Below are positions 1,788 through 61,836 of a DNA stretch of 64,000 nucleotides, one piece after another. Under the pieces are notes generated by a model. That model had not been told where the DNA came from and ran no database searches. It saw nothing but the letters and a program-made list of their open reading frames with translations. Position 1 is the first letter of the stretch. Every line of letters starts with the position of its first letter. The position numbers and the translations under genes were made by a program. This DNA comes from Amphibalanus amphitrite (taxonomy: Eukaryota; Arthropoda; Thecostraca; Balanomorpha; Balanidae), in the NCBI RefSeq assembly GCF_019059575.1, contig NW_024881625.1, positions 372,001-436,000 on the forward strand. Reading direction: 5' to 3'.

Positions 1788-3368
1788 CAGGGTGTAACGA
1801 AATTATCCGGACATCTTTCTTCGCGCTGTAATTAAGAAGCAAGACAATCTGATATTTTCTCTTTTGAATTATTATATAGCCACTTTTCATAAGAGCGCAG
1901 GTACAAATTTCTGGAGCATTCCAGCCACTGGGTTTTCCAGCACAGTGGGTTTCATGTAGAGCAGCGCCTTGCTAGCCTGTGCCCACAGTTGGGCGGCGCT
2001 GGTGGCGGGTGTCCCTTCATTCATCTCCTGCTGGACAATAGTCCATAAGATATCGATGGAATTGGGATGGGAACTATTTCCAAGCCATAGCCCGTTAGCC
2101 CAGAAGAAAAATAGGTCCTCTCGGCATCGCTTCTCATTCTGCTAGGGGACTTGAAGGTGGTGCGCCGCCCCGCATGAAGACTGCGCGGCTTGAATCAGGC
2201 ATCAGTACGCGTTCAGAAACAGAGCCCTCCTGCGCCGTCTGGTTGAGTGGCTCCAACCAATCGCTAGCCAGGATGTTGCGCCGGTAATACTCGTCACTGA
2301 TGTGGTTTCCTGTGGCGTCATGAACAGCTTGAATATTGCACAGCAGCTGAACATGCTCCAGGTTTGGATTTTGACCGGATGCTTGACGCCGGCGACGGCC
2401 GGCATGTTCGAGCTGCTGGCAGCCCACACATGACCGATTTGACGGTTCAACGGACATCGCAGCTCGAACAGCTTCCCATCCGACCAGGCCATCTCATTCA
2501 TGTCTTCCTTCGACCAGTGGTCACGCCCTGGCCTGAGGCCAAAGGTGGTGGACTGGTTCTTTTCCCGTCAGTTTCATTGTCTTTTTCAGTTTGAAGGGCA
2601 GTAAAACCAAGCTAAAGAGCGGGTAACGGTGAATTATGATGTGGGACCTCTTATTAACTGCCTTGGTAAGAATTCGAGTCAGTTTGCGGATTAATTGGTG
2701 CCGTTTCCTTGTCGCTATCTTGACAACTCTCCTCACCACTTGGCAAAGGGCGCCTTCTGCGATCGAGGCCGGGCTGAGTCTGCCACCAAGTCCCAGCTTA
2801 TTATGCCTGAGGCAGATGTGCTACTGGCTGCTGCTGATGTCCATCTGCTGACAGACCAGCTTCTGGCTCATGCCACCATGCCACCAACACGTAGCCTTAC
2901 TACGAAACGAGAGACTGTACTCCCTTCTCTCCACTGCCTTAAACGAAAACTGTCAAATGAACCTGTCGGCGACTCGACTCTTACTCAGAACAAGAGTCAT
3001 TTCGCAAGGTCAGAGGCCGCTTGCACCAAACTACCTAGCTAGGTAAAATCGAAAAACCGGTTTCAGAATAAGCTAATCTAAAGGTGGTAAATTTGTTTGC
3101 AATAACCCAATACATAACCCTACATGTGCTTGCTAAATTTCGCACGCAAATTGTTACATTTGAGACTTGGACTGGGTATACGATGCAAAATAATCCAAGC
3201 ATTGATGCAAGAGGATTTTGGTGCAAGAGGCCTCAGGTCACTGCTGAGTTGAGAGCAGATACCAGAGGTATGCATTCATCCAATTTTCCAGCTTCTAACA
3301 TTAAAAAAGAAACTTTGCGAGCAGATATGGCGAAAAAATAGATGTCCGGATAATTTCGTTACACCCTG
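1788..3368 (-). mobile_element. Tc1/mariner-type DNA transposon, degenerate, inserted in the satellite
   Basis: The ends are perfect inverted repeats of about 28 bp, beginning CAGGGTGTAACGAAATTATC on the left with the reverse complement on the right. They are flanked by a TA dinucleotide on each side (1786-1787 and 3369-3370), the hallmark target duplication of the Tc1/mariner superfamily. Removing the element restores the satellite sequence GAAAATACAATTGCACAG. The interior holds a decayed minus-strand transposase. The clean TIRs contrast with the broken coding region, so this copy may have been mobilised by an enzyme supplied elsewhere. Confidence 0.9.
1910..2860 (-). pseudogene. Tc1/mariner transposase remnant
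   Basis: Read on the minus strand in several frames, this gives a recognisable transposase. An N-terminal helix-turn-helix-like part (VRRVVKIATRKRHQ, about 2739-2690) is followed by a stretch with MNEMAWSDGKLFELRC (about 2500-2450). Next comes AVFMRGGAPP (about 2170), where the family normally has QDGAPPH, and then WLGNSSHPNSIDILW (about 2080-2040), where the family has a WPxxSPDLNPIExxW block. The catalytic aspartates of the last two blocks are lost and at least two frameshifts are needed, so it is inactive. The assignment rests on motif memory only. Confidence 0.75.
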
Positions 3369-3370
3369 TA

Positions 3371-3436
3371 CAATTGCACAGCAGTTTTCGAGTAGAGGGA
3401 TTGACCGAATTTCAAATCAAAGCACATCATCGGGTA
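3371..3436. repeat. Remainder of the interrupted 478-bp satellite unit
   Basis: The sequence CAATTGCACAGCAGTTTTCG through CATCATCGGGTA continues exactly the unit that stops at 1787. It ends abruptly where the reverse-transcriptase remnant begins. Confidence 0.9.
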
Positions 3437-5027
3437 AACCATGACACCAAACCTGCTTCCCGAACCACCAACAAATGACTCAGCACGAGAACATCAAAAG
3501 CCTGCCACTGACGCCCTGGCCCGTCGGATCCTCGGGAAATGTGCAGATGGCGACATTCGGGCGGCCCTAAGGCTACTGACCTCAGACGATACAGTTGCCG
3601 AGCCTGACGCCGAAGTAATCGCCGAGATAATGCTGAAACACCCAGCAGCTCCCAAGGACGAGCTTCTGCCGCCACCGCCCGCCCCATCAGACCCAGGGCC
3701 GCTCACGGTGACGCCGGAGGAGGTGGAGGCCGCTATCAACTCGATGCCTCCGGGATCATCAGCAGGCCTAGACGGCATCAGGCCGCTACATCTACGCCAG
3801 CTTATCTCCAGGGAGGCGGCTGAGAGCGGCCGCCGTCTTTTGCACTCCTTGACGGCACTCACCAACCTGGTGCTGGCCGGTGAGGTGCCGGATTGTGCCA
3901 GGGACGCCCTTTTCAGCGCCTCACTATGCGCACTCAGGAAGAAGAGCGGCGGATTGCGGCCCATTGCAGTCGGGAGCGTCTACCGACGCCTGCCATCCCG
4001 CATCGGAGCACGCTTCGTGGCAGACAGCCTTGGTGCCGAACTCCGTCCTGTCCAGCTCGGGGTAGGAACGCCCCTGGGCTGCGAGGCGGCGGTCCATGCA
4101 ACACGCAGTTTCATTGAAGCCAGCCGACAGTCAGCTGCTCCACACGTGCTGGTCAAACTTGACGTGTCAAATGCTTTTAACACGGTGCGGCGCGACGTCT
4201 TCTTGACCCGCATTAGGGAGCGATGTCCGGAGGTGTACTAGTTACCTAGCCTACCAGGCCCACGGCTCACCCAGCCCACTCATCATCGGAGGGCAGACCC
4301 GACCCCCACCGGACACGATTTGGTAGCCGAGGTCTGTGACGTCAGCCGGGCGTGAAGTTTTCCCTTCACCATAGGCTTCACACACAAGCTGGCCGAAGTT
4401 CATGCCAGGATAGCCCGGCTTGAAAGTGCAAAAATGATTAAATTTTGCCCTCAATAGATTCATTGCTTCATTTTATAACTAAAAACGTCCGTTATTAGGC
4501 CTCAATGAAGGTAAGAAGTACTCAAAATCGAAGTTGAAGAAGATGCTGTCCGAGCACAATCTGGTAACATCACGTGACCTCTCTTAAGCAGAATGTATAT
4601 AATTCAAGGATGTTATTACACGATTGCTGCCTAAAACATCATAAATAATACGCTTGTAACATTTATTGCTTCTGTTTAAGTCATAACATTGCAAAACGCA
4701 AAGTTTATCATGGCAGTCACGTGACCAAAGGTATAGCAGGGGTTGGGACAAGCACTCAAAGGATTTCAAGTTTTTTAATTAAATTATATAAGTTTCATGA
4801 TGAAATTGAAAGAATGTATTTTTTTCCTAATGAAATACAAATTTTCGTATGTAAAATATTTTCCTTATGGGCGAAATTCTCCATATAAGAAATGTCAGTG
4901 ACGTCACCAGGGCTTTACTCAAAACATCCGACCTACCTGTTTCTTATAGGTATCTTGGGCAGACCATCGCTTCGGCCTGCGGTGTCCTGCAAGGCGACCC
5001 GCTCGGACCGGCCGCGTTTGCTATCGC
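3437..5027 (+). pseudogene. Non-LTR-type reverse transcriptase fragment, interrupted
   Basis: An open frame at 3441-4241 (266 codons) reads as the N-terminal and central part of a reverse transcriptase. It has a PPGSSAGLDGIRPLHL block, then GGLRPIAVGSVYRRL, then the palm motif LVKLDVSNAFNTVRRD that carries the first catalytic Asp. A frameshift near 4235 moves the continuation (YLAYQAHGSPSPLIIGG) to another frame. A 657-bp insertion at 4300-4956 follows, and the reading resumes as GQTIASACGVLQGDPLGPAA, the GxxQGDPLGP motif. Sequence then diverges, so the YxDD motif, thumb and C-terminal part are missing. The clade is uncertain. It is non-functional. Confidence 0.8.
4300..4956. mobile_element. 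657-bp insertion with 9-bp target duplication
   Basis: The nonamer GGGCAGACC occurs at 4291-4299 and again at 4957-4965. Deleting one copy plus the intervening DNA rejoins the reverse-transcriptase reading (LIIGGQT then IASACGVLQG). The interior is AT-rich, has no long frame and shows no convincing terminal inverted repeats, so the superfamily is unknown. A 9-bp duplication would fit a MULE-like element or a short retroposon. Confidence 0.7.
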
Positions 5028-7335: not shown

Positions 7336-7971
7336 CAAGAGGCCCTAAAACATAAGGTTGTACGAAGTTTTCGACCAAAAATGTACTAGAAAAGCGCACG
7401 AGTCAAAGCTATTTCCGTTGTTTCTTTACAAATATGTCGCAAATAAGCTTTTTTTCTGTAATAAATCATTATTTTGAAGTTAAGCGTCCAGTTACTATTA
7501 ATTCCATAAGCAAATACTTATTTTTATATAAAAGCCTAGCTTATATAGTCCAACTCTAGTTAAATAATCAAGTAGCTAATAAATTTTCCAGATGTGACAC
7601 ATATTGCGCACTTCAGACAAATGCCTTGCTAGGGCGTTGCTAAGGACTCTTTCGCATGTTTTGCTGCCAGGTTTTTGTTATGAAGTGAGGGAAGTGAGAT
7701 ATGGATAGGCTCTTTGATTTTTTCTGGTTTTCTAGGACCGTCTCAAAACTCTCAATTATTTAACTTGAAATACTTTTCTTGCTTTTTTATCCGAGGCTTT
7801 TTCAATAATTGGTAGATTCTAGCGTGGAAATAAAAGGGCGAGCAGGCCACAGGGGTAAATGCAAGTCGACTGATAGCGAAATAAAAGGTAGAAGTGTCTG
7901 TTCCATTATAAATTTAATGTGATGTGATGGAACATGAAGCAACAGGATCAGACGCAAGAACCACCAATTAA

Positions 7972-9145
7972 CCTTCGCCCCAGTGGGGGGGGGGCATATG
8001 TTACCACCCTGTCGCGTTTTTTGCGTGTGAATAAAAAACCGCGGCGCGTAGCGCCGCGCCGCTTGGGGTAGCTTTTGGTACATCAATTTTGGACAATGTG
8101 TGAAATTTTTGACCCCAGGTCATGTCAGGTCAGGTCACCAGGTCAAGTTAACTGACCAAGCCTAAAAAAAGTTTGCAGTCATGTCCAGCCTGAAGTGTTT
8201 GTCAGAAAGGTTTCAAACTTGGTGGATTGCATGCTGTTATGGGCGCCTACAATTTGTATATCTCGGATTTTTTATATCCGTGACCTAAGGTCAGGTCAGT
8301 GGCGAAACCTTTCCATTACAAGTCAATGGAGAAAAATGAAAATGCCTCTAGATCCGTGTGTACGCATCGGAACAGTCCAAATATTTCAGAATCACAATGA
8401 TTTAGTCCACTCGTGATGACCAAGGTGTCATTTTTGCTGATAGCCTCTAGACAGGTCATCCGAGGTCACTTGAGGCTACAAACAGTTTTTTGCCAATAAC
8501 TCGCGATTGGAAAGAGATAGAACGCTGGGGATGGTCTCATTGTGTTTGCCTTGTTGAGACGCATCGACTGATATGCAGCACGACCTTTTCCGGTAAGGTC
8601 ATGACCTTGACCTGAGGTCAAATTTTCAACTTGACCTTTCAAGGTCAAATTATAGTTCATTCGACGCGTCTCGGCGAGAGGAACACGATTCTGGCAATAG
8701 AAATGTCGTGGCTTTTTGTAGTCGAAAGTTATTGTCGAAAAACACTTTTCGTAAAAACAGCTATTTTTGGACTTTTTGCCCTCTGGAGGCCAAACCGTTG
8801 ACCTGAGGTCAATATTGATAATGACCTTTTCAAAAGAAGAGTTCAAAAGCTATCGATTGCTTTTCCCTGCGTTATTCTAGCTACCATAGTTCCTGAGATA
8901 GCGGCATGTTTTCTGAAAAATATAATGACAATTGGCAAATTTTGACCTTTGATGACCTCTGGTGACCCCAATATTGCTCTAAGGTGAAAAATGACTGAAA
9001 TACTTTCAAACGTACGCATTGAGAGCTATCGACTGCTTTTTACCGCGTCTTTCTAGCCCTCTTAGTTTTTGAGTTAGAGGTGGGTGGTAACATATGCCCC
9101 CCCTCACTAGGGCGAAGTTGGCTGAGACCGCCACTGGGGCGCGGG
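7972..9145. mobile_element. TTAA-targeting element rich in AGGTCA half-sites (P1)
   Basis: TTAA at 7968-7971 and 9146-9149 flanks termini CCTTCGCCCCAGTGG on the left and CCCGCGCCCCAGTGG (reverse complement of the right). The paralogous empty site is present in this window: in hAT copy A2 around 24618 the sequence GGGTTCTTAATTGGTGG has a single TTAA and no insert. The interior carries many TGACCT/AGGTCA motifs (for example TGACCTGAGGTCA near 8610 and TGACCTTTCAAGGTCA near 8633). No transposase. Confidence 0.93.
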
Positions 9146-9639
9146 TTAAGAACCCAGAACCAGCAAGCGCCATGCAATCAAGAGCAGCCATGGTAACGTT
9201 TGATTATAAGCTTTCAGAAAACCTTAGAAGACGCCAGCAGACGGTGAGCAATCAAGAGATTTTACAAGACCATTAGTTACTTGAAAACGAGAGCCGCCAG
9301 GAAAATCGGTAGATTCTTCAATGGCAACACATTTCAACATCTATCTAGCAATGATTTGCACCAGCGAGGTGCTACCATTGTGTTTTGTGTCTGTATCCCT
9401 ATAAACTGCTAAAGAAATATTTGTGAATAAATAAACAAACAAACAACCAACAAATAATGCGTCTTTTTCTACTGAAAGTAAGTCCTCCAAGTGGCAGGGG
9501 ATGAATAATAGAAGGTACCTACCTAATTAATTGTCATCTATTCATTCAATTCATAGGCAATTCAGGGCATCGATCGGCAGCGCCCTTACTGCATGGTACT
9601 GCGGATCGTCAATGGGTTTCTTGATGACTCCGACTCTGA

Positions 9640-9985
9640 CTCAGACTTTCAAAAATCAACTGACTTTGATATCAAATGTCGGCTCTGACCGACTCCGACT
9701 CCACAGCCCTAGCAAATCTGCGGAGGCAATGTATTTTTGGTGACTCTGACTCCGACTCTGGCTTTCAAAATCGACTCTGACTCTGACTCTGGTCAGAACT
9801 GTCGACTCGACCGACTACAACTCCGACTACGGAACCCTGAAAGGTCTGCGGAGTGGATCGAATTTCGGTGACTGACTCAGACTCCAGCTTTTAAAATCGA
9901 CTCTGACTCCGACTCGACGACTCAGGTCAGAACTGTCAACTCCGACCGACTTCATGACTCCGACTCCGGAGCCCTACTGGCAGCT
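9640..9985. repeat. GACTC/GACTCCGACTC-rich subrepeat region of hAT copy A1
   Basis: Dozens of short units such as CGACTCCGACTC and CTGACTC are arranged irregularly in a single orientation. The same block occurs inverted in hAT copy A2, so it belongs to the element rather than being a later expansion. It may represent sub-terminal transposase binding motifs; that is inference. Confidence 0.8.
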
Positions 9986-10320
9986 ATCACGCCAGGAAGC
10001 TGCAAATCGTATGTTCCGTGGCGGTTTATGGCATTAAAGTCGATAATGCGGCTGAATCGCATTATGAAACACCCTTATTGGCTGCAAGAACCATGAAAGT
10101 TAGCGCATCACCACTGGAAAACGTGACAAGTTATCCATTAATTGGCCCTGGATCTGGATAAATAACATTGATGATCATATTAGCACATATTTACATCATC
10201 ATCTATCTCAAGGCTGCCCTTCAGGCGGCTCTAAACTATGGCAATTTCCCTATCTTCAACATGTAAATGCCCTCGGGCGTCCTCGTGGTGACGTACAGGG
10301 TATATAGCAGACATGTGCTT

Positions 10321-16112: not shown

Positions 16113-16402
16113 CTGCGCTGACGTCACAAAGTCAAAGGGGGCAATCGAATGCATTAGCCTTTCTGAGTTCGAGTGCTTCAGACTTTGAAGTTAAATATTT
16201 CGAGTGGAGGCATTGCTCGATGTTGTGAGTACCCAAACCGGTAATAACTACACTCAGAAACAGTTAAGAACATTATGTAACGGAAGTTGGCACAGATTCA
16301 GCACAGATTCAGCACAGCACAGATTCGGTAGGGGAAAAAAGGCCCCGGTAGAGGGAAACCTTTATGACCCGTTTTCCCCTAGAAATGACGTCACAAAGAG
16401 GT

Positions 16403-19400
16403 AAAAATGGGTATCAATCGAAAGCTCTCGTTTACCCAGACACAGTCCTGCAGGAAAATTCCACTTTTTCCCCATAGGAAAGTTTGTACGGGAAAATCAA
16501 AATTTTGGGTCAATGGGGGGTCCCCCCCGATTTCGTTCAAAATCGGCACACAGGTGCCCCACCACCACCCGAGAAACTTTCCCCAAAACGGTCCCCGTTG
16601 CATTGACGTTTAAGGCCCGTAAAGCCCCCTAGACTCGTAAAATATACGTAAAATCGCCTTTGTACGGACAAAAAAGTGGTGCTATGGTAAAAATGGGTAT
16701 CAATCGAAAGCTCTCGTTTACCCAGACACAGTCCTGCAGGAAAATTCCACTTTTTCCCCATAGGAAAGTTTGTACGGGAAAATCAAAATTTTGGGTCAAT
16801 GGGGGGTCCCCCCCCGATTTCGTTCAAAATCGGCACACAGGTGCCCCAGCACCACCCGAGAAACTTTCCCCAAAACGGTCCCCGTTGCATTGACGTTTAA
16901 GGCCCGTAAAGCCCCCTAGACTCGTAAAATATCCGTAAAATCGCCTTTGTACGGACAAAAAAGTGGTGCTATGGTAAAAATGGGTATCAATCGAAAGCTC
17001 TTGTTTACCCAGACACAGTCCTGCAGGAAAATTCCACTTTTTCCCCATAGGAAAGTTTGTACGGGAAAATAAAAATTTTGGGTCAATGGGGGGTCCCCCC
17101 CGATTTCGTTCAAAATCGGCACACAGGTGCCCCACCACCACCCGAGAAACTTTCCCCAAAACGGTCCCCGTTGCATTGACGTTTAAGGCCCGTAAAGCCC
17201 CCTAGACTCGTAAAATATCCGTAAAATCGCCTTTGTACGGACAAAAAAGTGGTGCTATGGTAAAAATGAGTATCAATCGAAAGCTCTCGTTTACCCAGAC
17301 ACAGTCCTGCAGGAAAATTCCACTTTTTCCCCCATAGGAAAGTTTTTACGGGAAAATCAAAATTTTGGGTCAATGGGGGGTCCCCCCCCCGATTTCGTTC
17401 AAAAACGGCACACAGGTGCCCCACCACCAGCCGAGAAACATTCCCCAAAACGGTCCCCGTTGCATTGACGTTTAAGGCCCGTAAAGCCCCCTAGACTCGT
17501 AAAATATCCGTAAAATCGCCTTTGTACGGACAAAAAAGTGGTGCTATGGTAAAAATGGGTATCAATCGAAAGCTCTCGTTTACCCAGACACAGTCCTGCA
17601 GGAAAATTCCACTTTTTCCCCATAGGAAAGTTTTTACGGGAAAATCAAAATTTTGGGTCAATGGGGGGGGCCCCCCGATTTCGTTCAAAATCGGCACACA
17701 GGTGCCCCACCACCACCCGAGAAACTTTCCCCAAAACGGTCCCCGTTGCATTGACGTTTAAGGCCCGTAAAGCCCCCTAGACTCGTAAAATATCCGTAAA
17801 ATCGCCTTTGTACGGACAAAAAAGTGGTGCTATGGTAAAAATGGGTATCAATCGAAAGCTCTCGTTTACACAGACACAGTCCTGCAGGAAAATTCCACTT
17901 TTTCCCCATAGGAAAGTTTTTACGGGAAAATCAAAATTTTGGGTCAATGGGGGGTCCCCCCCGATTTCGTTCAAAATCGGCACATAGGTGCCCCACCACC
18001 AGCCGAGAAACATTCCCCAAAACGGTCCCGTTGCATTGACGTTTAAGGCCCGTAAAGCCCCCTAGACTCGTAAAATATCCGTAAAATCGCCTTTGTACGG
18101 ACAAAAAAGTGGTGCTATGGTAAAAATGGGTATCAATCGAAAGCTCTCGTTTACCCAGACACAGTCCTGCAGGAAAATTCCACTTTTTCCCCATAGGAAA
18201 GTTTGTACGGGAAAATCAAAATTTTGGGTCAATGGGGGGTCCCCCCCGATTTCGTTCAAAATCGGCACACAGGTGCCCCACCACCACCCGAGAAACTTTC
18301 CCTAAAACGGTCCCCGTTGCATTGACGTTTAAGGCCCGTAAAGCCCCCTAGACTCGTAAAATATCCGTAAAATCGCCTTTGTACGGACAAAAAAGTGGTG
18401 CTATGGTAAAAATGGGTATCAATCGAAAGCTCTCGTTTACCCAGACACAGTCCTACAGGAAAATTCCACTTTTTCCCCATAGGAAAGTTTGTACGGGAAA
18501 ATCAAAATTTTGGGTCAATGGGGGGTCCCCCCCGATTTCGTTCAAAATCGGCACACAGGTGCCCCACCACCACCCGAGAAACTTTCCCCAAAACGGTCCC
18601 CGTTGCATTGACGTTTAAGGCCCGTAAAGCCCCCTAGACTCGTAAAATGTCCGTAAAATCGCCTTTGTACGGACAAAAAAGTGGTGCTATGGTAAAAATG
18701 GGTATCAATCGAAAGCTCTCGTTTACCCAGACACAGTCCTGCAGGAAAATTCCACTTTTTCCCCATAGGAAAGTTTGTACGGGAAAATCAAAATTTTGGG
18801 TCAATGGGGGGTCCCCCCCGATTTCGTTCAAAATCGTCACACAGGTGCCCCACCACCACCCGAGAAACTTTCCCCAAAACGGTCCCCGTTGCATTGACGT
18901 TTAAGGCCCGTAAAGCCCCCTAGACTCGTAAAATATCCGTAAAATCGCCTTTGTACGGACAAAAAAAGTGGTGCTATGGTAAAAATGGGTATCAATCGAA
19001 AGCTCTCGTTTACCCAGACACAGTCCTGCAGGAAAATTCCACTTTTTCCCCATAGGAAAGTTTTTACGGGAAAATCAAAATTTTGGGTCAATGGGGGGTC
19101 CCCCCCCGATTTCGTTCAAAATCGGCACACAGGTGCCCCACCACCAGCCGAGAAACATTCCCCAAAACGGTCCCCGTTGCATTGACGTTTAAGGCCCGTA
19201 AAGCCCCCTAGACTCGTAAAATATCCGTAAAATCGCCTTTGTACGGACAAAAAAGTGGTGCTATGGTAAAAATGGGTATCAATCGAAAGCCCTCGTTTAC
19301 CCAGACACAGTCCTGCAGGAAAATTCCACTTTTTCCCCATAGGAAAGTTTGTACGGGAAAATCAAAATTTTGGGTCAATGGGGGGGTCCCCCCCGATTTC

Positions 19401-21663
19401 GTTCAAAATCGGCACACAGGTGCCCCACCACCACCCGAGAAACTTTCCCCAAAACGGTCCCCGTTGCATTGACGTTTAAGGCCCGTAAAGCCCCCTAGAC
19501 TCGTAAAATATCCGTAAAATCGCCTTTGTACGGACAAAAAAGTGGTGCTATGGTAAAAATGGGTATCAATCGAAAGCTCTCGTTTACCCAGACACAGTCC
19601 TGCAGGAAAATTCCACTTTTTCCCCATAGGAAAGTTTTTACGGGAAAATCAAAATTTTGGGTCAATGGGGGGTCCCCCCCGATTTCGTTCAAAATCGGCA
19701 CACAGGTGCCCCACCACCAGCCGAGAAACATTCCCCAAAACGGTCCCCGTTGCATTGACGTTTAAGGCCCGTAAAGCCCCCTAGACTCGTAAAATATCCG
19801 TAAAATCGCCTTTGTACGGACAAAAAAGTGGTGCTATGGTAAAAATGGGTATCAATCGAAAGCTCTCGTTTACCCAGACACAGTCCTGCAGGAAAATTCC
19901 ACTTTTTCCCCATAGGAAAGTTTGTACGGGAAAATCAAAATTTTGGGTCAATGGGGGGTCCCCCCCGATTTCGTTCAAAATCGGCACACAGGTGCCCCAC
20001 CACCACCCGAGAAACGTTCCCCAAAACGGTCCCCGTTGCATTGACGTTTAAGGCCCGTAAAGCCCCCTAGACTCGTAAAATATCCGTAAAATCGCCTTTG
20101 TACGGACAAAAAAGTGGTGCTATGGTAAAAATGGGTATCAATCGAAAGCTCTCGTTTACCCAGACACAGTCCTGCAGGAAAATTCCACTTTTTCCCCATA
20201 GGAAAGTTTGTACGGGAAAATCAAAATTTTGGGTCAATGGGGGGTCCCCCCCGATTTCGTTCAAAATCGGCACACAGGTGCCCCACCACCACCCGAGAAA
20301 CTTTCCCCAAAACGGTCCCCGTTGCATTGACGTTTAAGGCCCGTAAAGCCCCCTAGACTCGTAAAATATCCGTAAAATCGCCTTTGTACGGACAAAAAAG
20401 TGGTGCTATGGTAAAAATGGGTATCAATCGAAAGCTCTCGTTTAACCAGACACAGTCCTGCAGGAAAATTCCACTTTTTCCCCATAGGAAAGTTTTTACG
20501 GGAAAATCAAAATTTTGGGTCAATGGGGGGTCCCCCCCGATTTCGTTCAAAATCGGCACACAGGTGCCCCACCACCAGCCGAGAAACATTCCCCAAAACG
20601 GTCCCCGTTGCATTGACGTTTAAGGCCCGTAAAGCCCCCTAGACTCGTAAAATATCCGTAAAATCGCCTTTGTACGGACAAAAAAGTGGTGCTATGGTAA
20701 AAATGGGTATCAATCGAAAGCTCTCGTTGACCCAGACACAGTCCTGCAGGAAAATTCCACTTTTTCCCCATAGGAAAGTTTGTACGGGAAAATCAAAATT
20801 TTGGGTCAATGGGGGGTCCCCCCCGATTTCGTTCAAAATCGGCACACAGGTGCCCCACCACCACCCGAGAAACTTTCCCCAAAACGGTCCCCGTTGCATT
20901 GACGTTTAAGGCCCGTTAAGCCCCCTAGACTCGTAAAATATCCGTAAAATCGCCTTTGTACGGACAAAAAAGTGGTGCTATGGTAAAAATGGGTATCAAT
21001 CGAAAGCTCTCGTTTACCCAGACACAGTCCTGCAGGAAAATTCCACTTTTTCCCCATAGGAAAGTTTGTACGGGAAAATCAAAATTTTGGGTCAATGGGG
21101 AGTCCCCCCCGATTTCGTTCAAAATCGGCACACAGGTGCCCCACCACCACCCGAGAAACTTTCCCCAAAACGGTCCCCGTTGCATTGACGTTTAAGGCCC
21201 GTAAAGCCCCCTAGACTCGTAAAATATCCGTAAAATCGCCTTTGTACGGACAAAAAAGTGGTGCTATGGTAAAAATGGGTATCAATCGAAAGCTCTCGTT
21301 TACCCAGACACAGTCCTGCAGGAAAATTCCACTTTTTCCCCATAGGAAAGTTTGTACGGGAAAATCAAAATTTTGGGTCAATGGGGGTCCCCCCCGATTT
21401 TGTTCAAAATCGGCACACAGGTGCCCCACCACCACCCGAGAAACTTTCCCCAAAACGGTCCCCGTTGCATTGACGTTTAAGGCCCGTAAAGCCCCCTAGA
21501 CTCGTAAAATATCCGTAAAATCGCCTTTGTACGGACAAAAAAGTGGTGCTATGGTAAAAATGGGTATCAATCGAAAGCTCTCGTTTACCCAGACACAGTC
21601 CTGCAGGAAAATTCCACTTTTTCCCCATAGGAGAGTTTGTACGGGAAAATCAAAATTTTGGGT
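16403..21663 (+). repeat. 286-bp tandem array, left arm (19 units, last one partial)
   Basis: Units start at GTAAAAATGGGTATCAATCG, include TTTACCCAGACACAGTCCTG, a G6-T-C7 hairpin-like block and CGATTTCGTTCAAAATCGG, and end in AAAAAGTGGTGCTATG. Two linked variants are interspersed: GTTTGTACGGG usually with CACCCGAGAAACTTTC, and GTTTTTACGGG usually with CAGCCGAGAAACATTC. This implies unequal exchange or conversion. Overlapping 68-86-codon frames on both strands repeat at each unit with frame slippage (286 is not a multiple of 3) and are not genes. Confidence 0.95.
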
Positions 21664-21667
21664 CCAA

Positions 21668-23113
21668 AAGTCCATTTTTACCAAAGCACCACTTTTTTGT
21701 GCGTACAAAGGCGATTTTACGGATATTTTACGAGTCTAGGGGGCTTTACGGGCCTTAAACGTCAATGCAACGGGGACCGTTTTGGGGAAAGTTTCTCGGG
21801 TGGTGCTGGGGCACCTGTGTGCCGATTTTGAACGAAATCGGGGGGGGGGACCCCCATTGACCCAAAATTTTGATTTTCCCGTACAAACTTTCCTATGGGG
21901 AAAAAGTGGAATTTTCCTGCAGGACTGTGTCTGGGTAAACGAGAGCTTTCGATTGATACCCATTTTTACCATAGCACCACTTTTTTGTCCGTACAAAGGC
22001 GATTTTACGGATATTTTACGAGTCTAGGGGGCTTTACGGGCCTTAAACGTCAATGCAACGGGGACCGTTTTGGGGAAAGTTTCTCGGGTGGTGCTGGGGC
22101 ACCTGTGTGCCGATTTTGAACGAAATCGGGGGGGACCCCCCATTGACCCAAAATTTTGATTTTCCCGTACAAACTTTCCTATGGGGAAAAAGTGGAATTT
22201 TCCTGCAGGAATGTGTCTGGGTAAACGAGAGCTTTCGATTGATACCCACTTTTACCATAGCACCACTTTTTTGTCCGTACAAAGGCGATTTTACGGATAT
22301 TTTACGAGTCTAGGGGGCTTTACGGGCCTTAAACGTCAATGCAACGGGGACCGTTTTGGGGAAAGTTTCTCGGCTGGTGCTGGGGCACCTGTGTGCCGAT
22401 TTTGAACGACATCGGGGGGGACCCCTCATTGACCCAAAATTTTGATTTTCCCGTACAAACTCTCCTATGGGGAAAAAGTGGAATTTTCCTGCAGGACTGT
22501 GTCTGGGTAAACGAGAGCTTTCGATTGATACCCTTTTTACCATAACATCACTTTTTTGTCCGTACAAAGGCGATTTTACGGATATTTTACGAGTCTAGGG
22601 GGCTTTACGGGCCTTAAACGTCAATGCAACGGGGACCGTTTTGGGGAAAGTTTCTCGGGTGGTGCTGGGGCACCTGTGTGCCGATTTTGAACGAAATCGG
22701 GGGGACCCCCCATTGACCCAAAATTTTGATTTTCCCGTACAAACTTTCCTATGGGGAAAAAGTGGAATTTTCCTGCAGGACTGTGTCTGGGTAAACGAGA
22801 GCTTTCGATTGATACCCATTTTTACCATAGCACCACTTTTTTGTCCGTACAAAGGCGATTTTACGGATATTTTACGAGTCTAGGGGGCTTTACGGGCCTT
22901 AAACGTCAATGCAACGGGGACCGTTTTGGGGAAAGTTTCTCGGGTGGTGGTGGGGCACCTGTGTGCCGATTTTGAACGAAATCGGGGGGGGACCCCCCAT
23001 TGACCCAAAATTTTGATTTTCCCGTACAAACTTTCCTATGGGGAAAAAGTGGAATTTTCCTGCAGGACTGTGTCTGGGGAAACGAGAGCTTTCGATTGAT
23101 ACCCATTTTTACC
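21668..23113 (-). repeat. 286-bp tandem array, right inverted arm (5 units)
   Basis: The same unit as the left arm occurs in reverse complement (ACAAACTTTCCTATGGGG recurs at about 21887, 22170, 22739 and 23026, with a variant ACTCTCC near 22457). The junction with the left arm at 21660-21670 reads TTTTGGGTCCAAAAGTCC, so the two arms meet with only a few bases between them. Confidence 0.95.
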
Positions 23114-23434
23114 TCTTTGTGACGTCATTTCTAGGGGAAAACGGGTCATAAAGGTTTCCCTCTACCGGGGCCTTTTTTCCCCCTACCGAATCTGTGCTGT
23201 GCTGAATTTGTGCTGAATCTGTGCCAACTTCCGTTACATAAGAACATTCCATGATTGGTTTACTCCGAAGTATCCGGCCAGTCTCAATTTCCGGTAAATG
23301 CTCTTGACACGGAGACATTAGATGCCGAAATTTCCAGAAAGCCAAGGTTTAGTATGCCGACTATCTCAATCAATCTCAACATCGATACAGCGACCTTCTT
23401 TGAGAAAACATTGGAAGTTTTTAATGGCCGTGCC

Positions 23435-25247
23435 CAGGGGGCGTCGAAGTCTAGTTCCTACCAACCTGGCACTCCCATGCCTACGTCACCACGAGGACGC
23501 CCGAGGGCATTTACATGTTGAAGATAGGGAAATTGCCATAGTTTAGAGCCGCCTGAAGGGCAACCTTGAGATAGATGATAATGTAAATGTGTGCTAATAT
23601 GATCATCAACATGTTATTTATCCAAATCCAGGGCCAATTAATCGATAACTTGTCACGTTTTCCAGTGGTGATGCGCTAACTTTCGTGGTTCTTGCAGCCA
23701 ATAAGGGTGTTTCATAGTGCGATTCAGCCGCATTATCGACTTTAATGCCATAAACCGCCACGGAACATACGATTTGCAGCTCCCTGGCGTGATAGCTGCC
23801 AGAAGGGCTCCGGAGTCGGAGTCATGAAGTCGGTCGGAGTTGACAGTTCTGACCTGAGTCGTCGAGTCGGAGTCAGAGTCGATTTTAAAAGTTGGAGTCT
23901 GAGTCAGTCACCGAAATTCGATCCCCTGCGCAGACCTTTCAGGGTTCCGTAGTCGGAGTTGTAGTCGGTCGGAGTCGACAGTTCTGACCAGAGTCAGTGT
24001 CAGAGTCGATTTTGAAAACCAGAGTCGGAGTCGGAGTCACTAAAATACATTGCCTCCGCAGACCTGCTAGGGCTGTGGAGTTGGAGTCGGTCAGAGCCGA
24101 CATTTGAAATCAAAGTCAGAGCCGATTTTTGAGTCTGAGTCAGAGTCGGAGTCATCAAGAAACCCATCGACGATCCGCACTACCATGCAGTAAGGGCGCT
24201 GCCGATCGATGCCCTGAATTGCCTATGAATTCAAATTGAATGAATAGATGACAATTAATTAGATAGGTACCTTCTATTATTCATCCCCTGCCAATTGGAG
24301 GACTTACTTTCAGTAGAAAAAGACGCATTATTTGTTTTTTATTTATTGATAAATATTTTTTGAGCAGTTAGGGATACAGACACACAACACCATTGCTATT
24401 GCACCTCGCTGGTGCAAATCATCGCTATAGATGTTGAAATGTGTTGCCATTGAAGAATCTACTGATTTTCCTGGCGGCTCTCGTTTTCAAATAACTACTG
24501 GTCTTGTAAGATCTCTTGATTGTTTTCCGTTTGGCGTCTTCCATTCCAAGGTTTTTGAAAGCTAATCAAACGTTACCATGGCTGCTATTGATTGCATGGC
24601 GCCTGCTGGTTCTGGGTTCTTAATTGGTGGTTCTTGCGTCTGATCCTGTTGCTTCATGTTCCATCACATCACATTAAATATCTAATGGAACAGACACTTC
24701 TACCTTTTATTTCACTATCAGTCGACTTGCATTTACCCCTGTGGCCTGTCCGCCCTTTTACTTCCACGCTAGAATCTACCAATTATTGAAAAAGCCTCGG
24801 ATAAAAAGCAAGAAAAGTAGGTATGTCAAGTTAGATAATTGAGACGGTCCTAGAAAACCAGAAAAAAAAATCAAAAAGCCTGTCCACCCCACTTCCCTCA
24901 CTTCATAACAAAAACCAGGCAGCAAAACATGCGAAAGAGTCCTTAGCAACGCCCTAGCAACGCATTTGTCTGAAGTGCGCAATATGTGTCACATCTGGAA
25001 AATTTAGTAGCTACTTGATTATTCAACTAGAGTTGGACTATATCAACTAGGCTTTTATATAAAAAATAAGTGCTTGCTTATCGAATTTATAGCAACTAGT
25101 TACTTAACTTCGAAATAATAATTTATTACAGAATAAGCTTGTTTGCGACACATTTGTAAAGAAACAACGGAAATAGCTTTGACTCGTGCGCTATTCTAGT
25201 ACATTTTTGGTAGAAAACTTCGTCCAACCTTATGTTTTAGGGCCTTG
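23435..25247. mobile_element. hAT element, copy A2 (1,813 bp, uninterrupted)
   Basis: It starts CAGGGGGCGTCGAAGTCTAG and ends GTTTTAGGGCCTTG. An 8-bp duplication with one mismatch flanks it (GCCGTGCC at 23427-23434 and ACCGTGCC at 25248-25255). It is the inverted homologue of A1 (7336-15354) minus A1's insertions. It therefore supplies the empty target sites for the TTAA element P1 and for hAT B. A short minus-strand-looking frame exists but I see no hAT transposase motifs. Confidence 0.9.
23810..24160. repeat. GAGTC-rich subrepeat region of hAT copy A2
   Basis: Irregular repeats of CGGAGTC/AGAGTCGG are the reverse complement of the block at 9640-9985, with several indels between the two copies. 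Confidence 0.8.
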
Positions 25248-27284: not shown

Positions 27285-27314
27285 TTAGGTTAGGTTAGGT
27301 TAGGTTAGGTTAGG
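27285..27314 (+). repeat. Telomere-type (TTAGG)6 tract
   Basis: Six perfect TTAGG units. TTAGG is the ancestral arthropod telomere repeat. It directly abuts the 5' region of the Penelope-like sequence that follows (AAGTATCATTAGAATATATG). Confidence 0.95.
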
Positions 27315-48220: not shown

Positions 48221-48255
48221 TTTATCATGCTCCTCGCAGCAGCTCTCAGCGATAT

Positions 48256-48295
48256 AGGTTAGGTTAGGTTAGGTTAGGTTAGGTTAGGTTAGGTT
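48256..48295 (+). repeat. Telomere-type (AGGTT)8 tract
   Basis: Eight perfect units of the TTAGG permutation AGGTT, followed by degenerate TGGTT/GGGTT units. It lies between the 48-bp repeat array and the 5' region of the minus-strand Penelope copy. This is the same relative place as the tract at 27285, but with opposite orientation relative to the element. Confidence 0.95.
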
Positions 48296-48309
48296 TGGTT
48301 GGGTTGGGT

Positions 48310-48655
48310 TGACTATGTAATCCCTGGACATTATTAACTCTGGCCCATTCAAGGCACTGGTCATTTTAAACACTGGGCACATCGTGCCCTGGACATTATG
48401 AACACTGGCCATTTCGAACACTGGACACATCGTGCCCTGGAAATTATGAACCCTGGCCATTTCGAACACTGCACACATCGTGCCCTGGACATTATAAACC
48501 CTGGCCTCTTTGAATTTACCCTATCTGCATTCTGCAGCCAGTTGGCCACATTTGGACCATGTAATCCCTGGACAATGTGAACACTGGCCAATTCAGGGCA
48601 CTGGCCATTTCGAGCACTGGACACATTGTGCCCTAGACATTATGAACCCTGGCCT
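48310..48655 (-). repeat. 48-bp repeat array, inverted copy
   Basis: Units such as CCCTGGACATTATGAACACTG followed by GCCATTTCGAACACTGGACA are the reverse complement of the array at 26641-27020. Diverged flanking units are also shared (CCAGTTGGCCACATTTGGAC). Confidence 0.9.
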
Positions 48656-57397: not shown

Positions 57398-57624
57398 TGT
57401 TATGTCTCGCGGCCCACCATCGACACACCACCGCTCGGTTCCGACTGACTGTATTGTAGCACGGTGGTGGGGACGACAGGAGGGTCGTCCCCTCAGGCAG
57501 TCCCTGACCTCGGCAGGGGCCGACCCAGGTATCACACACACAGTAGCAGGCAACTCACATATCGGCCACCGCCAATGCCCAGGCAGGGGTCTGCACAGGT
57601 GTGCACACGGCCCATTACATAACA
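57398..57624 (-). repeat. 3' LTR of the Ty3/gypsy-type element
   Basis: 227 bp, TG...CA ended with inverted TGTTATG/CATAACA termini. Identical by eye to the copy at 61837-62063. LTRs of this length are at the short end for the group. Confidence 0.95.
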
Positions 57625-57636
57625 CCTCTCCACCCT
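57625..57636 (-). promoter_or_regulatory. Polypurine tract
   Basis: On the minus strand AGGGTGGAGAGG sits directly against the 3' LTR, as expected for the plus-strand DNA primer in reverse transcription. Its first bases overlap the TAG stop of the gag-pol frame (57635-57637), a very compact 3' end. Confidence 0.85.
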
Positions 57637-60600
57637 ATTTTCTTAGTATCGGCCTCGGCCTCAAGTTATAGCGACGCGGCGGATCATCAGGCTGCGGCTG
57701 AGTGGTACACTGAGCCGCAGACGGCGGCCGCGGCGGGGACGGCGGCGGCGTCTCGGCGTCCCCCGGCTGAGTGGTCCCTGGATCCGCAGACGGCGGCGGC
57801 GGGGGCAGCGGCGCCGCGGACGCGGCCCTGGTCCCCGGCGGCCCCCCGGCCGCGGGATCCCTCTCCGCTGGTGCGGCGAGTCGTCCTCTTCCCTCCTCGG
57901 AAAGCGGTGTCCCAGGCGGAAGCGGCTGCATCCAAACCGGCGGCATGGACGGCGTCGGCTCATCGGTCAGCTCCATCTGACGGCTAGAACCGCTGGGCAC
58001 CACGAAGTCTAGGTGGCGCTGTATCACGCGGCCGTCCTCCAGACGAACAGTGATCTTGGATCCAGAGCGGCTCACGCAGTGTCCCGGGAGCCAGCGAGTT
58101 CCCCGTCCGACGCCGGCCAGTCCGGAGACCTGTGACACCCAGACACGCATTCCAGGGGTTAGAACACGATCCTGTGACCCACGGTCATATCTCTCCTTCA
58201 TCTGCTGCTGTGCGGCTGACACACGGTCCTGTAGGTCAGGCAGTAAACAATCCATACGAGTCCGCAAACGTCGGCCCATCATCAGCTCCGCTGGAGTCTG
58301 CGCCGTTGTGCTGTGAGGAGAGGTACGGTAGGTAAACAGAAACCGGCAGATTTTCGTGTCCATGCTGCCATGTTTCTGCTTTCTCAGGCCCTGCTTCACC
58401 GTCTGCACACAACGCTCCGCTAGACCGTTACTTTTGGCCGACAGGGGTGCGGTCAGCAAGTGGCGCATGTCCAGCTGCTTGCAGAACGTCTCGAACGCTG
58501 GCGCTGTGAAACATGTTGCGTTATCACTGACCAGGGTCCGCGGGATTCCAAAATATGCAAATGACTTGCGCAGCAGCTCCATGGTATTCTCGGCTGTCGT
58601 GGAACGGGCCAAGTGCACGTCAATCCATTTTGAGTACGCATCGACAACAATCAAGAGCAAGTGGCCATCGAACTGGCAGTGATCAATATGCACTCGGTCC
58701 CAGGGATTTTTCGGCCAGGCCCACGGACTGAGTGGCGTCACGGGTGCCTGTCGGCGATACTGCTGACATGTCGGGCAGTGACGCACCAGTTCAGAGACTT
58801 CTCTGTCTATCCCAGGCCACCAGACATACATACGAGCGAAACTTTTCGTGTGACTCTCTCCCAGATGTCCCTCATGCAGCATAGACAGAATTCTAGGCCG
58901 AATCTTGGGGGGTACCACCACCCGTGACCCCCACAGCAAACATCCATCCTGAATGCTCAGCTCACCTTCCTTGCTTCGGTACTGTACCAGCTCTGGCATC
59001 ACGAGGTCGCCCGACGGCCAGCCCTCCCTGGTGAAGCGCAGAACGGCACTCAGCACAGGATCCCTGGCGGTGAACAGACGGATGGACTCAGCGGTGACCG
59101 GTGACGAGTCGAAGAACTGCATCAGGTGCACCGTCTCAGCTGGAACGGGCAGCTGGGGCGATCCTGCAGACACAGGAAGTCGGCTCAATCCATCACAGTG
59201 TCCCTGCTTGATACCCGGTACATATTCCATCTTATACTTGTACCCCGAGAGCAGCATAGCCCATCGTGTCACCCGGGGAGAGGCCATCAGTGATACCGGC
59301 TTATTTCCTCCAAGCATACCCAGCAGCGGCTTATGATCTGTCCGGATCAAGAATTCACGACCTGCCAAGTAAAAATTGAACCTGGCCAGGCCAGCAATCA
59401 CTGCCAGGCCCTCGCGATCGGTCTGGGAATACCGTCTCTCAGTCTCCGACAGAGACCGCGAGTAGAACGCAACTGGCCTCTCAACATGGTTCCTGTCCAT
59501 GATACTTAGGACACATCCTACCCCCACCGGGCTGGCATCACAAGCCAAAATGACTGGAGCTGTCTCGTCAAAGTGCGCTAAAGTCAGGGTTGATTTCAGC
59601 ATACCTTTCGTACTCTGAAACGCCTTCCTCTGAGCTGGGCCCCATTCCCACTTCTGCTCCTTTTTCAGCAGCTGATACAGCGGTGCCAGTTCTGTGGCGA
59701 GGTTTTTCAGGAACTTCGCGTAATAGTTGACCAGGCCGAGCCATGCCTGAAGCTCTTTCAAGTTTTTGGGCTCTGGGGCTTTTTCAATGGCACTGACCTT
59801 GTCTGCTGTTGGTTTGATACCATCTGCCGTGATGTGGTGTCCCAGATACACCACTTCTGATGCCGCGAACTGACACTTCTTCCGCTGCAGTCGCAGTCCT
59901 GCCTCCGACAGACGTCTCAGAACCTCCTCCAGCCGCTGCAGATGTTCCTGTTCGGATCCTGCTGAGACAATGACGTCATCGATCAGCACACCAACTCCTG
60001 GGATTCCAGCGAGCAGCGATTCCATGTATCTCTGGAAAATCGCCGGGGCTGAGGCATATCCAAAACCCAGCCTAGTCGGTACCAATATTCCCTTGTGCGT
60101 ATTGATAGCCATGTACTTCCTGCTGTTTTTATCTAACTGAATCTGATTATATGCGCTTTTCAGATCTAGTTTCGTGAAAATTCTGGCACCCTGAAATAGC
60201 GTGAATAGCTCCTCAGTCTTGGGCATCGGGTACCTCTCTAGCGGCGTTACTTTGTTGACCGTTAACCGATAATCACCACAGAGACGGACCTCACCTGACG
60301 CCTTCAGTGCAGTGACGATCGGTGCAGCCCACGTGCAGTGTTTCACCGGTTCCAGCAGCCCGGCCTGGATCTGACGGTCCAGCTCGGCGTCGACAGCAGC
60401 ACGGTACGCCAGCGGTACCGGCCTGGGCTTGTAGAATATGGGGCGTGTGTCTGGGTCAATCGGGATATCTACCACAATCCCCTTCGCACATCCCAACTCA
60501 TCCGCAAACACATCAGAGTACTTATGCAGCACAGACTCAACTCCGCTTCCCAGCGTCTGCGTCGTCACCATGCAGATGGTTCTCCAGTCCAGTCTGATGC

Positions 60601-61807
60601 TCTCCAACCAGTTCCTGCCGAAGAGCAGCGGCCCTGTCCCATCAACTACTACCAGGGGCAGGCTAAACGACTCTCCGCGGTACACCACGTCCATCTGTAC
60701 CTCACCTCGGACCTTCAAAGGCTCGCCTGAGAAGGTGTGTAGGATGAGGCTGCACGGCTGCAGACGGCGTTTCTTCTCCGGCCAGAGCTCTTGAAACCTG
60801 CTGAACGAACAGACGGATACAGATGCACCCGTGTCAAGCTCCATCCTGACATCGCGCCCATCCAGCGACATGTCCAGCATGATTGGAGGCCGGCTTTTCA
60901 CCACATGAATCCGCTCCAGACACTGAAAAACCTCCCCGATAAAGTCAATTTCTTCAGTGTCTGCCTCCATCACACTCTGCTCTTCCCCAGATCCATCGCC
61001 CTCCTCCTGACGGACCACCTCCGACCCAACATGTTTCACCGTCCCTGCCCGGTGAGCGGCCGACGTATGCCCATACTTGGAACACTGGAAGCAGCGCTTA
61101 CGTTTAAAGTAGCATTCGGATTCAGAGTGCGTTCTGTTCAAACAGCGCCAGCATCTCTCACCTTCATGCCGGGCTTGCTTACTGGCGTTGTGTCGCTCCT
61201 GGCTGGTCCGCTGTGAGGCTGACGGGCCCGTCCGGACACGGTTCACTGCCGTCTCCCCCGTAGCGGACACCACCGGCTGGCCAGCTCCCGTCAGCTCCTG
61301 TAGGTTTTGACCTGCTGTTTCCGTTGCCACAGCAATCTTGATTGCCTGCGGCAAAGTCAGCTCAGCTTCTGCCAGCAACCTGCGCTGAATGGGGTCAGAG
61401 TTAACTCCACACACCAGCCGGTCTCTGATCATTTGATCAAGAAACGATTCGAATTTGCAGTCCCGTGACAGCTGTCGCAGGCGCGCCACAAACTCCTGAA
61501 CAGACTCTGACTGTACTCGACAACAGGAAAAGAACCGATATCTTGCGACAGTTACCGATGTGGGCGGACAAAATTGCTTGCTCAATGTTTCAACAATCAT
61601 GGCATACGTCACCTCATTTTGTTTCTTCGGTGACAACAGCGATCTTACCGTACCGTATGTCCGAGCTCCCATGCTGCTGAGAAGAATGGCCCTCTTCTTA
61701 GCATCGTCCTGGATGTCATTAGCCACGAAGAATTGATCCAACCTTTCCGCGTACTCTTCCCAGTTATCTTGTCCTTGGTGAAATTCTTCAATCTTCCCCA
61801 ACGGCAT
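57635..61807 (-). CDS. Gag-pol polyprotein of Ty3/gypsy-type retrotransposon (1,390 aa)
   Basis: I chose the ATG at 61807 (MPLGKIEEFHQ), 30 bases inside the 5' LTR, because it begins a gag domain; the frame is open further into the LTR. Domains in order: gag matrix/capsid-like region (1-200); two zinc knuckles CX2CX4HX4C/H (219-252); aspartic protease with DTGAS (325-329); reverse transcriptase (about 455-620) with LDLKSAYNQI and LIDD in place of the usual YxDD; RNase H (about 750-870) with DAS, E and TDHK; integrase with HHCC finger (H978, H981, C1011, C1014) and D1042, D1095, E1131 (DD35E). A Pro-rich tail follows. There is no envelope gene and no frameshift between gag and pol, as in several invertebrate lineages. 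Confidence 0.95.
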   Translation of the reverse strand: MPLGKIEEFHQGQDNWEEYAERLDQFFVANDIQDDAKKRAILLSSMGARTYGTVRSLLSPKKQNEVTYAMIVETLSKQFCPPTSVTVARYRFFSCCRVQSESVQEFVARLRQLSRDCKFESFLDQMIRDRLVCGVNSDPIQRRLLAEAELTLPQAIKIAVATETAGQNLQELTGAGQPVVSATGETAVNRVRTGPSASQRTSQERHNASKQARHEGERCWRCLNRTHSESECYFKRKRCFQCSKYGHTSAAHRAGTVKHVGSEVVRQEEGDGSGEEQSVMEADTEEIDFIGEVFQCLERIHVVKSRPPIMLDMSLDGRDVRMELDTGASVSVCSFSRFQELWPEKKRRLQPCSLILHTFSGEPLKVRGEVQMDVVYRGESFSLPLVVVDGTGPLLFGRNWLESIRLDWRTICMVTTQTLGSGVESVLHKYSDVFADELGCAKGIVVDIPIDPDTRPIFYKPRPVPLAYRAAVDAELDRQIQAGLLEPVKHCTWAAPIVTALKASGEVRLCGDYRLTVNKVTPLERYPMPKTEELFTLFQGARIFTKLDLKSAYNQIQLDKNSRKYMAINTHKGILVPTRLGFGYASAPAIFQRYMESLLAGIPGVGVLIDDVIVSAGSEQEHLQRLEEVLRRLSEAGLRLQRKKCQFAASEVVYLGHHITADGIKPTADKVSAIEKAPEPKNLKELQAWLGLVNYYAKFLKNLATELAPLYQLLKKEQKWEWGPAQRKAFQSTKGMLKSTLTLAHFDETAPVILACDASPVGVGCVLSIMDRNHVERPVAFYSRSLSETERRYSQTDREGLAVIAGLARFNFYLAGREFLIRTDHKPLLGMLGGNKPVSLMASPRVTRWAMLLSGYKYKMEYVPGIKQGHCDGLSRLPVSAGSPQLPVPAETVHLMQFFDSSPVTAESIRLFTARDPVLSAVLRFTREGWPSGDLVMPELVQYRSKEGELSIQDGCLLWGSRVVVPPKIRPRILSMLHEGHLGESHTKSFARMYVWWPGIDREVSELVRHCPTCQQYRRQAPVTPLSPWAWPKNPWDRVHIDHCQFDGHLLLIVVDAYSKWIDVHLARSTTAENTMELLRKSFAYFGIPRTLVSDNATCFTAPAFETFCKQLDMRHLLTAPLSAKSNGLAERCVQTVKQGLRKQKHGSMDTKICRFLFTYRTSPHSTTAQTPAELMMGRRLRTRMDCLLPDLQDRVSAAQQQMKERYDRGSQDRVLTPGMRVWVSQVSGLAGVGRGTRWLPGHCVSRSGSKITVRLEDGRVIQRHLDFVVPSGSSRQMELTDEPTPSMPPVWMQPLPPGTPLSEEGRGRLAAPAERDPAAGGPPGTRAASAAPLPPPPPSADPGTTQPGDAETPPPSPPRPPSAAQCTTQPQPDDPPRRYNLRPRPILRK

Positions 61808-61819
61808 GGCTCCGTCCTC

Positions 61820-61835
61820 ACTCCGCTCGTCGCCA
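61820..61835 (-). promoter_or_regulatory. Primer-binding site
   Basis: One base inside the 5' LTR the minus strand reads TGGCGACGAGCGGAG. It starts with the TGG that pairs with the CCA end of a tRNA primer. The tRNA species cannot be decided without a tRNA set. Confidence 0.7.
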
Positions 61836-61836
61836 A

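Follow-up and report, generated by a model that had tools for sequence, protein, structure and literature searches.

How does a block of nearly 7 kb come to consist almost entirely of tandem repeats that face each other, and is such a block a transposon, an inverted satellite or a fault of assembly? The question is raised by a stretch of 64,000 nucleotides of Amphibalanus amphitrite DNA (RefSeq assembly GCF_019059575.1, contig NW_024881625.1, positions 372,001 to 436,000 of the forward strand), all of which is referred to here as the window. The element in question occupies window positions 16275-23239 (6965 bp). It is near certain that this element belongs to a mobile family of foldback transposons, and we consider it probable that the copy in the window derives from a foldback DNA transposon, most likely of the MULE superfamily, and is itself non-autonomous. 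Its parts are as follows.

16266..16274, no strand: left target-site duplication AAGAACATT, 9 bp, exact match to 23240-23248
16275..16399, + strand: left terminal domain (flanking domain, FD), starts ATGTAACGG, inverted match to the right end
16290..16317, + strand: subterminal 11-bp tandem repeat GCACAGATTCA, 2.5 copies (Tandem Repeats Finder)
16400..21664, + strand: left arm, 18 full 286-bp units and 112 bp of a 19th
21665..21671, no strand: centre filler CAAAAGT, 7 bp between the opposed arrays
21672..23113, - strand: right arm, 5 units of 286 bp, orientation opposite to the left arm
23114..23239, - strand: right terminal domain (FD), final letters CCGTTACAT
23240..23248, no strand: right target-site duplication AAGAACATT, exact match to the left duplication

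The window copy and its relatives

The flanking duplication is perfect over exactly 9 bp, and words of 10 bp or more fail to match. The terminal domains (125/126 bp) are inverted with respect to each other and differ by one substitution and one single-base indel (126 versus 127 bp compared). Both features had been claimed in an earlier note made from the window sequence alone, and both hold. The same note counted 19 units facing 5. Its count for the right array is exact (5.0 copies of 286 bp, 97% matches), but the left array, with 18.4 copies at 98% matches by the same program, Tandem Repeats Finder, has 18 full units and a partial one rather than 19. Similarly, the note's view that there is almost no loop is correct in that the arrays lie only 7 bp apart, but the two arms end at different unit positions (left, 112; right, about 297), so that a hairpin folded in phase would have a loop of ~190 nt. 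In the register of the termini the arms form a 1.57-kb inverted repeat with 97.6% identity. There is no coding region of note among the open frames listed inside the element, as had been claimed; the only two frames of at least 110 amino acids both lie within repeats. The terminal domain resembles the unit only weakly: 28 of 500 shuffles reached the same level, and so did 24 of 500 when its inner half was taken. The DNA fold of a single unit has a z of -2.4, with 5 of 200 shuffles as low. An Rfam scan found nothing in the window and nothing near the element, and exact-pattern searches of viral contig and genome contig collections returned 0 matches to it.

The host assembly (807,550,619 bases in 2644 contigs) contains many relatives. 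The exact 27-bp terminus occurs 285 times (138 forward, 147 reverse), compared to 0 and 0 for the reversed control, so its repetition is not due to chance; at two termini per element, this suggests about 140 elements in the genome. With the terminal 146 bp as query, 427 candidate places came up; the best 40 were scored, all at 99-100% identity over the full length. Because only these 40 of the 427 hits were listed, the sample is skewed to copies with well-kept ends. Paired by position, the 40 hits correspond to 31 elements, of which 27 were read: 25 complete short copies, including that of the window, one copy cut by a contig start (L022) and one long copy, C105. The four unread elements are at C51:281777, C42:630463, C12:490546 and C9:2126417. 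The earlier note had expected further copies with both the terminal segment and 9-bp duplications, and these are present: 21 of the 25 complete copies have a perfect 9-bp duplication and one (L013) has a duplication of 10 bp. The three without a direct duplication, L009 and L010 (both C68) and L020 (C1304), may be rearranged; they could have arisen by recombination between copies, for example as inversions.

The complete copies range from 4497 to 11836 bp in length (median 7873), and the longest include nested insertions. Unit starts per arm vary from 2 (right arm of L011) to 28 (left arm of L031), and the two arms have unequal counts in 24 of the 25 copies; the exception is a copy with a zigzag array, L034_32, with 18 in each. 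The unit number of any single copy rests on the assembly, and that of L019 depends also on the method used to find units (6/10 versus 5/10). Foreign DNA is nested in some arms, where it stretches the unit spacing to 1962 bp (L026, in which the insert resembles an inverted repeat by eye), 2237 bp (L015_16) and 824 bp (L028); the arms of L035 and L036_38 likewise contain nested DNA.

Turnover of units and diversity of centres

The first 18 copies contain 417 full units, of which 282 are distinct, and no unit of the window copy is exactly identical to any in the other 17. Divergence between units averages 2.1% within copies and 3.3% between them (414 units, three with insertions having been dropped). 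Closely related sister copies offer a view of the changes involved, and the aligned pairs sit at different sites with different duplications. L014 and L017 (12 mismatches in 7297 aligned bases) have equal counts, yet are separated by one two-unit gain and one two-unit loss. In L012 and L013 (9 mismatches in 5010) a net five units changed in one arm while the other remained constant, and in L021 and L023 (22 in 6120) interior units changed and the outer and inner units were retained. L031 and L037 (58 in 6455) have 28/6 and 18/10 units. The number of units thus differs in three of the four aligned sister pairs, at 0.2-0.9% divergence. At different sites, L037 and L039 agree in length (7890) and in unit counts, and an alignment of L010 with L017 is more distant (415 mismatches in 7573). 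Taken together, the alignments indicate that unit number changes within arms, arm by arm, among copies of low divergence, though not in every pair. The earlier note's proposal of asymmetric arm change finds support in these gains and losses and in the unequal arm counts, and its expectation that the element should be highly unstable is backed, indirectly, by unit turnover between sister copies.

Within the window copy we aligned the 18 full left units, the partial 19th and the five right units. The left units radiate almost as a star from a single consensus, and five of them carry a second class of linked variants; right units 2-5 have in common a variant whose only left-arm occurrence is in unit 2. 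On average, two units show 3.7 differences if both are from the left arm, 6.0 if both are from the right arm and 5.5 if they come from opposite arms. This distribution of variants and differences would fit separate growth of the two arms. No significant period was found along the left arm (461 of 2000 shuffled unit orders were as low).

The 25 centres, where the arms meet, fall into 14 groups, one of eight copies, one of three, two of two and ten single; the centre of the window copy groups with none of the other 24. In 18 measured copies the junctions have fillers of at most 79 bp or overlaps of at most 20 bp, at many unit positions, and L035 has a longer insert of simple repeats. The centre of L027 is the unit's own inverted repeat, CCGATTTCGTTCAAAATCGG, with zero loop, and the centre common to eight copies has an asymmetric spacer of about 8 bp. 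L034_32, flanked by a 9-bp duplication, switches orientation five times (+6 -7 +5 -5 +7 -6), and by eye its outer switches are mutual reverse complements, as are the next two. When its halves are aligned, 101 of 4405 bases are mismatched and there are 1162 gap columns besides; since the halves have diverged to this extent, the mirror image, if it arose by copying, is old. In L009 the first bases of the arms are identical at 1269 of 1270 positions; this copy lacks a direct duplication and is probably rearranged. The idea that L009 is an inverted duplication came down to a 14-bp inverted flank and was set aside.

A long copy with a candidate transposase

C105 alone among the copies read has a long interior enclosed by family ends and arms. 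Its two main features are as follows.

C105:775220-801085: long copy C105, 25,866 bp, with family ends and arms
C105:789336-794981: open frame of 1882 codons, stop-free

The arms have 16 and 14 unit starts, with about 17.4 kb between them, and the terminal domains are identical (127/127 bp). The interior contains minisatellites of ~71 and ~53 bp (C105 interior, L024/L033) and a copy of the terminal inverted repeat (TIR) element at window 1790-3368 (94.6% over 1236 bp). Proline-rich, coding-like repeats of 162 and 60 bp lie in and beside the long frame. Within the frame the first methionine is codon 847, and the 1036 residues from there are close in length to P0122 (1071 amino acids), the sole database match at E <=0.001 among 7993 scored candidates (47% over 92%).

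The Pfam family PF10551 (MULE) matches the frame at E 0.093 and 13.6 bits in a 977-residue piece and at E 0.031 and 15.2 bits in a 534-residue piece, and this weak match is the sole Pfam match of the frame's central piece. The last 94 residues match Peptidase_C48 at E 0.014 and 15.7 bits; in P0122 the same domain is found above its cut-off, at E 1.4e-9. The motifs HIDATG, SDLSWALLHAI, CTCH and ESWFRTL of the frame, which may correspond to the catalytic D, D, C-H and E residues of MULE transposases, are largely common to P0122, and HW, D, Q and C in the tail presumably represent the Ulp1 active site. Plant MULEs can carry Ulp1-like domains. There was no PHD match in two pieces spanning the last 1071 of the 1882 codons, and the Pfam matches of the scanned pieces include no THAP or P domain. 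Searched against the assembly, the frame gave 98 candidates, of which 83 were scored and 66 were matches. Identity is 100% only at C105; the other 65 have at most 58%, except for one 55-residue piece at 78%, and seven long matches at 41% resemble copies of each other. None of the matches outside C105 lies inside a terminus pair, judged by eye, among the places listed (contigs C1-C163). C39 and C21, which have long terminus pairs, have no match to the frame, and a 9.9-kb stretch read of C39 is mostly units.

Structure and mobility both place the family among foldback elements: it has long inverted arms of direct tandem repeats in variable number, and it moves as a unit with a target duplication, with sister copies at different sites. 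MULEs are described as making duplications of 8-11 bp (PMC6446971), and 22 of the 25 complete copies have 9 or 10 bp. The 9-bp length is also that of Rehavkus. TIRs in MULEs are typically longer than 100 bp (PMC5225508), as they are here, and subterminal short tandem repeats together with 8-10-bp duplications have been published for this group (PMC5225508, PMC3169594). The P superfamily, including Galileo, is characterized by a 7-bp duplication and a THAP-type P transposase; the duplications here are of 9 bp, and the scanned pieces gave no THAP or P match. We consider it likely, with good confidence, that the family is MULE-type. With somewhat less confidence, the frame of C105 is likely, though not proven, to be the family's transposase. 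The earlier note had suggested a foldback/MULE family with an autonomous relative; the copies with constant ends, and a long relative in which a MULE-like candidate (15.2 of 27.6 bits) sits within family ends and arms, lend support to this suggestion.

We propose that the frame would encode a transposase with a MULE-type DDE domain and a C-terminal Ulp1-like protease. This protein would mobilize the family by a cut-and-paste route, with the terminal domain, and perhaps also the repeats, as its binding sites. Short copies, including that of the window, may have arisen when gap repair was aborted and ends were joined by fold-back, so that the interior was lost; the two arms would then adjoin directly, at a centre specific to the event. 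Fold-back joining could account for centres like that of L027. Later unequal exchange or slippage among units would lengthen or shorten the arms, and occasional copying of one arm onto the other would alter their length further. The sole direct trace of a lost interior is in the centre of L011, where 34 bp of filler match the inner edge of the C105 interior at 94% (E 3e-9), which points to an internal deletion, as expected; we extend this origin conditionally to the other short copies. A wider proposal, which we offer only tentatively, is that a single 25.9-kb copy with a transposase fused to a Ulp1-like protease drives about 140 copies that nearly all lack it, and that the whole arm is the unit of inheritance, rebuilt by fold-back template switching to give new centres and the mirrored zigzag.

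Several results weigh against this interpretation. The flanks of C105, GCATAAACA and GCACAAACA, agree in only 8 of 9 bases. With the first methionine only at codon 847, the proline-rich part upstream of it may not be coding. Both MULE scores are below the Pfam curated cut-off of 27.6 bits, and the Peptidase_C48 score of the tail is below its cut-off of 20.7. P0122 itself has no MULE match in Pfam at E <=1, and the structure model of the C105 product, with a mean predicted local distance difference test (pLDDT) score of 35, is too poor for use. A genome search with PF10551 gave 204 candidates, 150 scored and 111 matches; C105 is absent from these 111 places, and none of them lies inside a terminus pair, by eye, among the places listed (contigs C1-C163). 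The frame is found in only one copy, so it could be a nested passenger, and a trace of the interior is found in only one centre.

One alternative is that these foldback-like elements belong to another superfamily (P/Galileo, Rehavkus or another) and that the frame is a passenger, either a nested insertion or a captured gene. Foldback forms occur in several superfamilies (PMC3169594, PMC3573991), and the low MULE score, the absence of C105 from the PF10551 places, the restriction of the frame to one copy and the presence in C105 of other nested DNA, namely the 1.58-kb TIR element, are all consistent with such an origin. We nevertheless regard it as unlikely, given that duplications are of 9 bp at 21 of 25 sites compared to 7 bp in Galileo (PMC3573991), that no THAP or P domain was seen, that the central piece of the frame matches only MULE, if weakly, and that the frame sits in the one copy read with a long interior bounded by family ends and arms. 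The idea that the block is ordinary satellite DNA, inverted by rearrangement without any transposon, can be rejected. Tandem repeats do make up most of its length, and foldback repeats can become satellites, as in Tetris (PMC4079207), but a unit-bearing block with constant ends, 9-bp duplications at most sites and different duplications in sister copies is not explained in this way. We reject equally the possibility that the palindrome is an artefact of assembly or library. Long inverted repeats are prone to misassembly, which also bears on the unit counts, but in the window copy the flanking 1 kb on one side is not an inverted copy of that on the other, save for one identical inverted 57-bp piece away from the ends, and the arms differ in length and unit variants. 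The 25 complete copies lie in different locations, fall into 14 centre groups and mostly have perfect duplications, which makes a palindrome created by assembly very unlikely.

The origin of the centres is a closer matter. Rather than internal deletions, they could be revisions of an originally perfect palindrome, by hairpin opening or template switching at its tip, a scenario that we consider a real possibility, if somewhat short of probable. The zero-loop centre of L027 at the unit's short inverted repeat, the asymmetric spacer common to eight copies and the five switches of L034_32, of which the outer ones are mirrored by eye as fold-back copying would give, are in keeping with it. The centre of L011, which keeps 34 bp of the C105 interior, argues instead for deletion, and the divergence between the halves of L034_32 means that no recent copying took place there. 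Internal deletion and palindrome revision may both be active.

Surroundings and known foldback elements

Other repeats accompany the element in the window. A second tandem array, with 3.6 copies of a 478-bp unit, occupies positions 1-1789 and 3369-3442 and extends past the window start. Its 11-bp repeats resemble those of the terminal domain, to a degree reached by 0 of 500 shuffles and 0 of 300 pieces of the window, and it may be an arm of a related foldback family; similarity between its sequence and the 286-bp unit is not significant (61 of 500 shuffles). The TIR element at 1790-3368 (1.58 kb), flanked by TA and with inverted ends CAGGGTGTAACGAAATTATCCGGACATC, is inserted in this array. The motif TGACGTCA occurs 22 times in the window, compared to 1.3 expected from trinucleotides, in varied contexts and once per terminal domain. 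An inverted pair of copies (91-92%) of another element, at 7340-10295 and 23482-25245, flanks the foldback copy, and 57 bp are identical and inverted at 15298 and 23435. TTAGG microsatellites at 27285-27314 and 48255-48310 adjoin inverted copies of a 48-bp minisatellite; frames not far from them presumably encode Penelope-like reverse transcriptase and GIY-YIG-like proteins, on the basis of motifs. These features point to an arthropod as host, and a reverse transcriptase search, not decisive on this point, had named hits in moths, a cuttlefish, a barnacle and a crab. Finally, a gypsy-type long terminal repeat retrotransposon with identical 227-bp end repeats and an open gag-pol frame lies at 57398-62063.

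The family is of interest for the large number of arms and centres that it offers at the resolution of single units, and for its candidate autonomous copy. One genome offers about 140 copies, as estimated from 285 termini, with near-identical sister pairs whose units serve as barcodes, alongside a graded set of palindrome centres and the long copy. This makes it possible to test in what way foldback arms lengthen, how an animal genome keeps or reshapes long palindromes, and whether arm repeats serve the transposase. The Ulp1-tailed candidate provides a second handle on the diversity of animal MULEs. If template switching does occur as suggested, the genome would contain a natural series of events in the formation and repair of long palindromes.

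Comparisons with Tetris and FB were made by description rather than by sequence, and for FB they use the general description of these elements. In the parts of the literature consulted, foldback families are on record from drosophilids, a mosquito and nematodes. The nearest in build is Tetris of Drosophila virilis, a foldback element with a terminal flanking domain followed by ~220-bp tandem repeats in inverted arms, 8-10-bp duplications and a unit number that varies between alleles, which was placed with Mutator by duplication size (PMC4079207). The family described here differs in its 286-bp repeat, in a terminal domain of 125/126 bp compared to one of up to 866 bp in Tetris, in arms of up to 28 units and in the way that the arms of the 25 short copies meet, with no true middle domain between them. 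The authors report no transposase for Tetris (PMC4079207), whereas one long copy here carries a candidate. Galileo also has long inverted arms with internal tandem repeats that change independently, and two-arm copies without an interior (PMC3573991, PMC3688188). FB elements are built along the same lines. Galileo, however, has a P-type transposase and 7-bp duplications (PMC3573991, PMC3688188), unlike the 9-bp duplications and MULE-like, Ulp1-tailed frame found here.

Among MULEs, Muta1 of Aedes (PMC5225508) and Tm1 of Meloidogyne (PMC3169594) have been described as foldback-type, with a short terminal motif, many non-autonomous copies, subterminal tandem repeats of 12-15 bp and duplications of 8-10 bp, mostly 8 or 9. 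They differ from the present family in that Muta1 has a 145-bp terminal repeat and a transposase of 504 amino acids, Tm1 has arms of ~14-bp repeats and a transposase of 496, and a large repeat unit is not among the features described in the parts of these reports cited. Rehavkus, a MULE relative with arthropod and annelid hosts, shares the 9-bp duplication and a minisatellite near one end; this minisatellite lies before the 3' end, the TIRs are 26-400 bp and the protein has a PHD finger (PMC6446971). According to a survey of 2026, the TIRs of MULEs in arthropods span 13-1193 bp (PMC13359780). A foldback with such arms and such a transposase was not found in the portions of the literature covered, in which no search was directed specifically at Ulp1-bearing MULEs of animals. 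The kind of element is already known, from FB, Tetris and Galileo; what sets this family apart is the length of the arms, the mirrored zigzag array and the candidate transposase-protease.

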